Assembly: GCA_004282875.1 (NCBI GenBank)
Contig: SHLT01000002.1
Span: forward strand, 29,709-93,708
Origin: Chromatiales bacterium
GTDB taxonomy: Bacteria > Pseudomonadota > Gammaproteobacteria > Steroidobacterales > Woeseiaceae
Direction: 5' to 3'
Length of the DNA: 64,000 nt
The position numbers and the translations under genes are program-made. The notes beneath the pieces were generated by a model. It did no database searches. It had not been told where the DNA came from and worked only from the letters and a program-made list of their open reading frames with translations. This document shows positions 14,241-33,392 of this stretch, in pieces (the first letter of the stretch is position 1; each line of letters opens with the position of its first letter).

Positions 14241-14377
14241 GATTCAGGATAGCCTGAGCCGTGACAAGCGAATGCCGCCACCCGCGACCATATGTGACCC
14301 GGTTATTTTACAGAATCAGCCCCTCGGAACTGGTTCGTTGCGCCATCGCCCTTGATATGCAAGGATCGAAACTCGTT

Positions 14378-14457
14378 TGACAAAGGCACACCTGTCGAAA
14401 GGCAGGGTCGCAAAGCTTCCGGCCTAAAGGATCTTCCAAGGGCAGCGGGGCTACCAA
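14378..14457 (+). promoter_or_regulatory. cyclic-di-GMP-I (GEMM-I) riboswitch aptamer
   Basis: ACAAAGGCACACCTGTCGAAAGGCAGGGTCGCAAAGCTTCCGGCCTAAAGGATCTTCCAAGGGCAGCGGGGCTACCAA matches the GEMM-I core (GGCAAACC-GAAA loop-GGGACGCAAAGCnnCCGGCCTAA...GGnAGCGGGGnTACC); lies about 60 nt upstream of the RBS of the next CDS. Confidence 0.9.
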
Positions 14458-14529
14458 CGCGAATTTTCATCGCTACACCGATGCTGCCTGCGTGTCTTTG
14501 CCAACTTGTTGACACTGCTGGAGGCATTG

Positions 14530-31393: not shown

Positions 31394-31837
31394 TCAGACG
31401 TCGCCAGCGACCAGTCCCGCAATCTGCGCCGGCGTAACGTTCAACGCGGCAACCACATTATTGAAGAAATCGACTTCGAGCCCACTCACCGTTGAGTCAC
31501 TTCGAAATACCTCGGTGAGCGCCTGGACGACTTCCGCGCGATGCGCATCGCTCAATTTTTTCTGAACGCCGCGCAAATACTTCACCAGCGTTGCCTCGGC
31601 GTAGAGCTCTTCGCGCGCCGCGACGCGAACGTCGGCAGAACTGAATTCCTTGCCAGTGTGGTTCTTGAGAATAGCCTGGATTTTTTCAACCTCGACATGC
31701 TGGATACTCACGTCCGCATCGGCAGCGCGCGCCAAGGTCATCAGCAGGGTTTCTTCGAACAGATCGTTCTCATGCTCCGCGCTAACTTCGGAGCCACCGA
31801 ACAATTTGAGTACGTAATTGAGATCTGCAATTGCCAT
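31394..31837 (-). CDS. TerB-like (tellurite resistance TerB fold) protein
   Basis: ETLLMTLARAADADVSIQHVEVEKIQAILKNHTGKEFSSADV and a downstream helical repeat typical of TerB-like proteins. Confidence 0.75.
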   Translation of the reverse strand: MAIADLNYVLKLFGGSEVSAEHENDLFEETLLMTLARAADADVSIQHVEVEKIQAILKNHTGKEFSSADVRVAAREELYAEATLVKYLRGVQKKLSDAHRAEVVQALTEVFRSDSTVSGLEVDFFNNVVAALNVTPAQIAGLVAGDV

Positions 31838-31944: not shown

Positions 31945-31973
31945 TTGGAATTTGTTGATTTACAAGACATACT
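31945..31973 (+). promoter_or_regulatory. putative sigma70-type promoter for the small ORF unit
   Basis: TTGGAA-N17-CATACT (each hexamer 4/6 to consensus, optimal spacing), about 33 nt before the ATG. Confidence 0.4.
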
Positions 31974-31991
31974 GGTTTCGGGCAAACAAAC

Positions 31992-32097
31992 AAAAGGAGG
32001 TGATCCATGTCTCGTGGGATAACAAAGGTATCTGAAAAACCTGTGGGTCTGACGCGAAAGATGGAGCACCGCTACTCGCTTCGCTAGTCCTCCTTTT
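31992..32097 (+). promoter_or_regulatory. SD/anti-SD inverted repeat flanking the small ORF
   Basis: AAAAGGAGG (31992-32000) and CCTCCTTTT (32089-32097), perfect 9-nt complement; alternative pairing TATCTGAAAA (32029-32038) with TTTTCAGGTA (32094-32103). Confidence 0.55.
32007..32087 (+). CDS. candidate 26-aa small protein MSRGITKVSEKPVGLTRKMEHRYSLR
   Basis: ATG preceded by AAAGGAGGTGATCC (31993-32006), complementary to the 16S rRNA 3' tail; 6 nt between AGGAGG and ATG; stop TAG 32085; followed by a terminator. Below the 60-aa cutoff of the ORF track. Confidence 0.55.
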   Translation: MSRGITKVSEKPVGLTRKMEHRYSLR

Positions 32098-32116
32098 CAG
32101 GTATTTGATTCCACGG

Positions 32117-32140
32117 AAGGCCGCCGACAGGCGGCCTTCT
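32117..32140. terminator. terminator hairpin between the small ORF and the class V aminotransferase gene
   Basis: AAGGCCGCC-GACA-GGCGGCCTT followed by CTTTG. Confidence 0.7.
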
Positions 32141-32144
32141 TTGT

Positions 32145-33392
32145 TCATGCGGCCAGAATCTGCCGCAATTCGGCAAGCAATTCGTCCAGTTCTTCGCGGC
32201 TGTTGTAATGCACCGGCCCAACGCGCACAGCGCCGCCCGACTCGTAGATGCCGAGGGTCCTGGCGACTTCCACGGCGTAGTTGTGACCGCTCCAGACAAA
32301 GATATTCTGCCGGCCGAGCCACTCTGCAATGCGGGCAGGCGAATGACTCGAATGTGTGAATGCAACCGTGGGTACGCGACGATCCATGGCGTCGGCGGCC
32401 GTAATTCCCAGCACCCTCACGCCATCAAGGCCGTGTAGCCCGTCGATCAAATGTTCAGTGAGCGACTTCTCGTAGTCGAACAACAGCTCCATCGCCGCGA
32501 CCAGTGCCGCTCGCCCGCCTTCGGCCCCGGTCATCGATGTGCCGATCCATTCGAAATAGTCGACGGCCGCCTTGATGCCCGCAAAACCTTCATGACTTTG
32601 CGTACCGGTCTCGAAGCAGCCGGGTACGTCTTTCGGCGCGGGCCTGACCTTGTAGGGTTCGAGTCGCTCGAGCACATCGAGCCGCCCCCACAACACACCC
32701 TGGTGCGGTCCGAAGAACTTGTAGGGCGAACACACGAGGAAGTCACAGCCGATCGCCTGTACATCCGTCGCGACATGCGGCAGCGACTGGACTGCATCGA
32801 TATAAGTAAGCACGCCGGCCGCCCGCGCTCGCGCGCAGATTGACGTGACGTCGTTCAGGGTACCGGTCAGGTTGCTGGCGCCGCCCACGCAGATGAGCCG
32901 CGTTCGATCGGTCAGCAATTCGTCCAGGTCGTTCAGATCGAATTCAAAGGTCTCAGGGCTGAAAGGCAGCCACCGGACGTTGAGGTCGAGGTCCTTCGCC
33001 ATCAGCACCCAGGGCCAGACGTTGGCATCGTGATCCATGCGGGACAGGATGATTTCGTCACCCGACTGGAACAGCCTCCCGATCGAGCGTGACAGGTGCA
33101 TCGTGATCGTCGTCATGTTCTGGCCGAAGACGATCTCCCGGGCCGATGGCGCGTTGAGAAGGTTTGCCATCGCCTCACGTGCGGATTCGACAACCTCATC
33201 AGCGGCGGCCGACGACGGAAAGCAGCCACCGAGATTTGCGTTGCTCTGCAGCAGGCAGTCGGACATGGCCGCAACGACACCACCCGGCACCTGGGTTCCG
33301 GCCGGGTTGTCGAGGTAGATACGGCGTCGACCGTTATCCTGAATCGCGAGCGCCGGAAACTGCGCTCGCACGGCGTCGAGGTCAAAGGACAT
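32145..33392 (-). CDS. cysteine desulfurase-like protein (aminotransferase class V)
   Basis: YLDNPAGTQVPGGVVAAM, VCSPYKFFGPHQGVLWGR (PLP lysine), NYAVEVARTLGIYESGGAVRVGPVHYNSREELD. Confidence 0.92.
   Translation of the reverse strand: MSFDLDAVRAQFPALAIQDNGRRRIYLDNPAGTQVPGGVVAAMSDCLLQSNANLGGCFPSSAAADEVVESAREAMANLLNAPSAREIVFGQNMTTITMHLSRSIGRLFQSGDEIILSRMDHDANVWPWVLMAKDLDLNVRWLPFSPETFEFDLNDLDELLTDRTRLICVGGASNLTGTLNDVTSICARARAAGVLTYIDAVQSLPHVATDVQAIGCDFLVCSPYKFFGPHQGVLWGRLDVLERLEPYKVRPAPKDVPGCFETGTQSHEGFAGIKAAVDYFEWIGTSMTGAEGGRAALVAAMELLFDYEKSLTEHLIDGLHGLDGVRVLGITAADAMDRRVPTVAFTHSSHSPARIAEWLGRQNIFVWSGHNYAVEVARTLGIYESGGAVRVGPVHYNSREELDELLAELRQILAA

Follow-up and report, generated by a model that had tools for sequence, protein, structure and literature searches.

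Anatomy of the locus

The locus described here lies on the forward strand of the window, a 64,000-nucleotide stretch of a Chromatiales contig, and is flanked by genes for a TerB-domain protein (31394-31837, minus strand) and for a cysteine desulfurase-like class V aminotransferase (32145-33392, minus strand). It comprises a promoter-like site, an A-rich leader, an extended Shine-Dalgarno (SD) block complementary to the 3' tail of the 16S rRNA, a micro-ORF of 26 codons and an intrinsic terminator (Table 1). An earlier note, made from the letters of the window, had singled out most of these parts, and a direct check found all its named sequence features where it had placed them, including the SD string AAAGGAGGTGATCCA at 31993-32007. 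The promoter, the SD block, the exact ORF length and the terminator all recur in relatives, the aligned homologs retaining the promoter-like site (with CTTGGAATTT and GACATACT/GAGATACT kept genus-wide), the leader, AAGGAGGTGATCCATGTC and the terminator. The 14-mer AAAGGAGGTGATCC of the SD string occurs once in this assembly, which is 86% complete, and the fold of the transcript beats 199 of 200 dinucleotide shuffles (z -2.9). At three loci (L003, L006, L045), a near-identical second copy (GGGCCGCAGCAATGCGGCTTTCTTT) follows the terminator of the element. Elsewhere in the window, at 14376-14459 on the plus strand, lies a c-di-GMP-I-GGC riboswitch (RF03167, above the gathering score, E 1.2e-13).

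Table 1. Parts of the element, in window coordinates.
Feature	Position	Strand	Remarks
Promoter-like site TTGGAA-N17-CATACT	31945..31973	+	TTGGAA 31945-31950, CATACT 31968-31973
A-rich single-stranded leader GGGCAAACAAACAA	31980..31993	+	Aligned in relatives
Extended SD AAGGAGGTGATCCA, complement of the 16S 3' tail	31994..32007	+	Near-invariant in relatives
26-codon ORF MSRGITKVSEKPVGLTRKMEHRYSLR, stop TAG	32007..32087	+	Codon 27 is the stop in all 41 aligned homologs
P1 5' strand GTGGGAT, codons 3-5	32014..32020	+	Pairs with 32108-32114; changes are compensatory both within the genus and across classes
P2 5' strand TATCTGAAAA	32029..32038	+	Double changes in 6/10 pairs
P3 5' strand GGGTC	32045..32049	+	82% of cells paired, few double changes
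P3 3' strand, overlaps stop codon	32086..32090	+	Pair-count test, genus alignment
Anti-SD CCTCCTTTT of the earlier note	32089..32097	+	Lineage-specific; not a conserved part
P2 3' strand TTTTCAGGTA	32094..32103	+	Pair-count test, genus alignment
P1 3' strand ATTCCAC	32108..32114	+	Immediately abuts the terminator; compensatory changes
Intrinsic terminator	32115..32140	+	Stem held by compensatory changes in the genus

The aminotransferase gene downstream is convergent with the unit, which ends at its terminator, and a comparison of neighbourhoods across lineages found no conserved neighbour gene. Leader peptides and attenuators are alike in that translation of a short ORF would remodel a structure beside a terminator, but they differ in that here no gene follows the terminator and the neighbours vary between lineages. 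A leader-peptide attenuator was rejected because it would have no gene downstream to regulate.

Distribution and relation to CC2171

The search of relatives that the earlier note had proposed indicated that the locus is conserved: at the DNA level 24 of 40 relatives were matched, the weakest of them through the terminator only. The exact SD/start string AAGGAGGTGATNCATGTC occurs in 55 of the 63 genomes of the genus, nearly always in a single copy, and also in three genomes that belong to a different family of the order. Three small streamlined genomes of the genus (G004, G011, G190; 1.4-1.5 Mb) are without the element, and so are many genomes of sister genera. Within the order, a sequence model (R1) gave matches in 19 genera and in 96 of the 296 genomes, the weakest matches being doubtful. 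When GTDB species genomes were scanned, the matches listed included Woeseiaceae, other Gammaproteobacteria and many Alphaproteobacteria, among the latter Agrobacterium pusense, Rhizobium, Pelagibacterium, Hyphomicrobium, Filomicrobium, Ponticaulis and Henriciella. Model R2, which covers the 5' block, matched 107 of 399 Pseudomonadota genomes, its strong matches falling mostly in another class and usually one per genome; those of its weak multi-copy matches that were retrieved turned out to be 16S 3' ends read in antisense. A chance arrangement was rejected on the recurrence in relatives and the near absence of stops from the ORF.

Some occurrences deserve separate mention. One alphaproteobacterial genome (G681) has the element twice (L296/L297); the copies diverge, one being of an 18-codon MSHGSA type and the other of a CC2171-like MSHCH type. 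Nine Rhizobium and Shinella plasmid records carry the Agrobacterium element, with no feature listed there. Three records titled Klebsiella pneumoniae MAG contain it as well (L140, L190, L194); these names are probably wrong, because the order of Klebsiella is otherwise nearly without the exact string. A phage origin was considered and rejected, the Agrobacterium element having no match in phage records.

The element matches Rfam family RF01867 (CC2171), a Caulobacter sRNA of unknown function, over its full length (model positions 1-159, 44.2 bits, E=1.8e-8), and the alphaproteobacterial members do so as well, at 27-69 bits. The gathering score of 75 bits is reached neither by the window nor by the best relative tested (L297, 68.9 bits). 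Because this full-length homology scores below 75 bits, the elements form a homologous, broader family and are not formal members of RF01867. The two have in common the leader cAAcaAucGAAAGGAGGUGAUCCA, the start codon followed by UCU, and a helix abutting the terminator (CAUUGUC/GACAAUG in RF01867), with compensatory changes between the types; they differ in the sequence of this helix and in the middle and the length of the ORF. Rfam gives RF01867 the type of an sRNA gene, and no ORF is indicated in the search output; read from the alignment, its consensus is an intact GTG-initiated ORF of 22 codons ending in TAA. In the literature, RF01867 figures among the families improved by R-scape and among the sRNAs predicted in Mesorhizobium, and a passage of PMC4117421 reports translation of two Caulobacter ncRNAs that had been predicted before, without naming them. 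Other Rfam candidates (L20 leader, isrD, suhB, BjrC1505) were dismissed, with weak scores well below their cut-offs. By these comparisons, we are dealing with a real, widespread and under-described RNA family, the anatomy of which is well supported, while its mechanism is inferred with more guarded confidence.

A closed domain around the ORF

Codons 3-5 of the ORF form a helix with the 7 nt that precede the terminator. This helix, P1, is decisive for the interpretation and was absent from the earlier note. It starts at the eighth base of the ORF, within the 30S footprint, and leaves the region from the leader through codon 2 largely free. Of 154 elements, 87% have P1 alongside the terminator, the figure for control positions being 17.5%, and its variants remain complementary though unrelated in sequence (GTGAGAT/ATCTCAC, GTGGGAT/ATTCCAC, CATTGTC/GACAATG, GTGGAT/ATCTAC). 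In the genus alignment, RNAalifold recovered P1 and the terminator; for P1, P2 and P3 together, 87.9% of cells are paired, and sliding them out of register gives no more than 50.7%. Their double-change cells number 51, against 22.6 in shuffles, and none of 500 shuffles reaches 51; most of this covariation within the genus comes from P2, the test of P2 and P3 covering one genus. As judged from these pairings, P1, joined in this genus by P2 and P3, encloses the ORF and its stop in a closed domain.

The earlier note had described the stem TATCTGAAAA/TTTTCAGGTA as an alternative competing with an anti-SD pairing. The stem is real and conserved, and corresponds to P2, but its supposed competitor is not conserved. 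A switch in which CCTCCTTTT sequesters the SD has in its favour that the two strings are perfectly complementary over 9 nt in the window, as they are in much of the L001-L012 subgroup; yet this complement is absent from the group L013-L019, from the rest of the genus, which is much of it, and from other lineages. In the covariation check, the pairing yielded 5 double-change cells, barely above the shuffle mean of 2.5; it hardly beats a slide by one column (83.1% vs 76.9% paired in the genus alignment) and at core G-C positions it is broken in as many as 16 of the 45 sequences. As a mechanism of the family, such a switch is thus already largely refuted and highly improbable. A second proposal, a local fold of the start codon (ATCCATG/CGTGGGAT), depends on GTGGG, so that the many relatives with GTGAG have lost it; its bases also belong to P1.

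A genuine ORF with a variable peptide

Among 143 distinct elements, the start codon is ATG in 139, GTG in 2, TTG in 1 and CTG in 1; the ORF has 26 codons, with the stop at codon 27, in 97 of them, and 23-26 codons in 131. Within codons 5-19, frame 0 holds 1 stop in 2145 codons, against 116 (5.4%) in frame 1 and 68 (3.2%) in frame 2, counts that are not independent, the 143 elements being related. Other lengths are fixed in their own clades, with 18 codons in f226, f236 and f154, and 23 in f232. This is strong comparative evidence that the ORF is genuine and probably translated: it is held free of stops, and its length is fixed per clade at 26, 23 or 18 codons.

These features would suit an ordinary small-protein gene, in which the extended SD would give very high expression of a functional peptide of 18-26 aa and the structure would only tune expression or stability. 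The MSSE start is widely common, and the frame-0 nonsynonymous/synonymous ratio is 0.53-0.65 in three gammaproteobacterial groups, against 0.8-1.45 in the other frames; some peptide constraint may therefore exist there. Several observations speak against this explanation. First, beyond codons 1-4, the peptides of different clades have almost nothing in common. Second, the first codons themselves (MSSE, MSHC, MSHG, VSRK) change in step with P1, codons 3-4 becoming CAT TGT in the CC2171 type. Third, the comparison of synonymous rates that the earlier note had called for detected no peptide constraint in the alphaproteobacterial group f226 (0 synonymous and 20 nonsynonymous changes), and a Pfam/NCBIfam search with three peptides of the family gave no match. 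Fourth, the C-terminal QPS is encoded by the nucleotide motif GGAGCARCCTTC, which, exactly or nearly, is kept in another frame in three alphaproteobacterial loci (L131, L135, L180). QPS was on this ground rejected as a peptide-level motif, and GGAGCARCCTTC is an RNA-level motif, because it is kept although the frame differs. We consider a small-protein gene unlikely. The self-regulating small protein envisaged by the earlier note is weakened by a peptide that differs between clades.

The position of GGAGCARCCTTC at the apex of the domain bears also on a base-pairing regulatory RNA with an incidental ORF, that is, a dual-function sRNA with a seed inside the ORF or at the apex, the accessibility of which would be modulated by translation. 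The element's own promoter-like site and terminator, the annotation of CC2171 as an sRNA, and the retention of the motif at the nucleotide level whatever the frame, in part of the family, are all consistent with it. However, the motif is missing from the 18-codon types and from part of the genus of the window, and we regard this explanation as improbable. Known dual-function sRNAs such as Spot 42/SpfP and rnTrpL/peTrpL (cf. PMC10117765) are likewise short independent RNAs with a micro-ORF, but here a closed helix encloses the ORF, the SD extends over the entire 16S tail, and the identity of the peptide is not conserved between clades.

Complementarity to the 16S tail and a possible mechanism

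Across the family, a complement of the 16S 3' tail of 13-17 nt stands directly 5' of the start codon, and the AACAA of the leader is seen in Alphaproteobacteria and in the RF01867 consensus too. In those Alphaproteobacteria for which the own 16S end was retrieved, the antisense of this end reads AGAAAGGAGGTGATCCAGCC, and their elements read GAAAGGAGGTGATCC, ...CCA, or GAAAGGAGGTGATCCAGTG with a GTG start, a match of 15-17 nt exact. The gammaproteobacterial family f154 has TAAGGAGGTGATCC as its 16S antisense and TAAGGAGGTGATC in its elements; the elements have TAAGG where the antisense of their 16S has TAAGG, the Alphaproteobacteria having GAAAGG. Because f154 and the Alphaproteobacteria each match their own, the leader appears, in these two lineages, to track the 16S end of its host. 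The 16S 3' end was not found in the assembly of the window, in its genus or in three single-contig genomes of the order, and the complementarity is verified on the 16S ends of other Proteobacteria and not on the window's own. The extended complementarity to 16S is strongly conserved.

Nearest-neighbour estimates, which apply outside the ribosome, give about -11 kcal/mol for the duplex of the AAAGGAGG core, a plain SD, and -21 to -30 kcal/mol for that of the whole block; by the same approach, opening the region from -15 to +15 costs 10-20 kcal/mol. Such duplex energies, and a complementarity that covers essentially the whole single-stranded tail and follows the differences between lineages at its end, would be expected of an RNA that acts in trans by binding the 16S tail, either to titrate 30S subunits or to check the maturation of the 16S 3' end, with the ORF serving only for ribosome clearance. 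This explanation leaves the fixed length of the ORF and P1 unaccounted for, and, from a gene present once, only extreme expression would suffice to titrate ribosomes; it too strikes us as unlikely.

We favour instead a free-standing structured RNA some 160 nt long, which would also be a micro-mRNA, that captures 30S subunits and has its fold gated by translation of its micro-ORF; we give the whole of this explanation a probability of roughly 45%. The independent transcription of a micro-ORF RNA, suggested by the earlier note, is borne out as far as sequence comparison goes; the note's observation is confirmed, and its interpretation is partly supported. The exposed leader would use the entire 16S tail to capture 30S subunits, and the extra pairing energy would pay for opening P1 within the 30S footprint. 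From the energies and the position of P1, we infer that docking of the whole tail may open the helix and that translation may then hold the domain open. Each round of initiation and elongation would open the domain, which would snap shut without initiation. The RNA would thus be either occupied and open or idle and closed, depending on the supply of initiation-competent 30S subunits, and the outputs of the two states could be decay of the RNA, exposure of a trans-acting segment or sequestration of 30S. Against this, the strong SD may do no more than ensure ample production of a peptide, and the frame-0 ratio of the gammaproteobacterial groups allows some peptide constraint. A role in sensing or titrating 30S, which the earlier note had raised, is possible. 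More speculatively, the elements could represent a class of riboregulators of Alpha- and Gammaproteobacteria that sense initiation-competent 30S subunits through a whole-tail leader, in which translating a fixed-length, content-free micro-ORF would hold a terminator-adjacent helix open and the RNA fold would report translation capacity. This generalisation is tentative.

Implications

Our analysis places the CC2171 RNA of Caulobacter at the edge of a much larger family, which extends to Agrobacterium, Rhizobium, Pelagibacterium, Hyphomicrobium, Woeseiaceae and other Gammaproteobacteria. The joint conservation of complementarity to the whole 16S tail, of a stop-protected micro-ORF with a clade-fixed length, and of a covarying closing helix is unusual, and the family is directly testable in genetically tractable hosts. 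Such tests would bear on how far SD pairing can reach, on RNAs that read the supply of ribosomes, and on micro-ORFs selected for their translation and not for their product.
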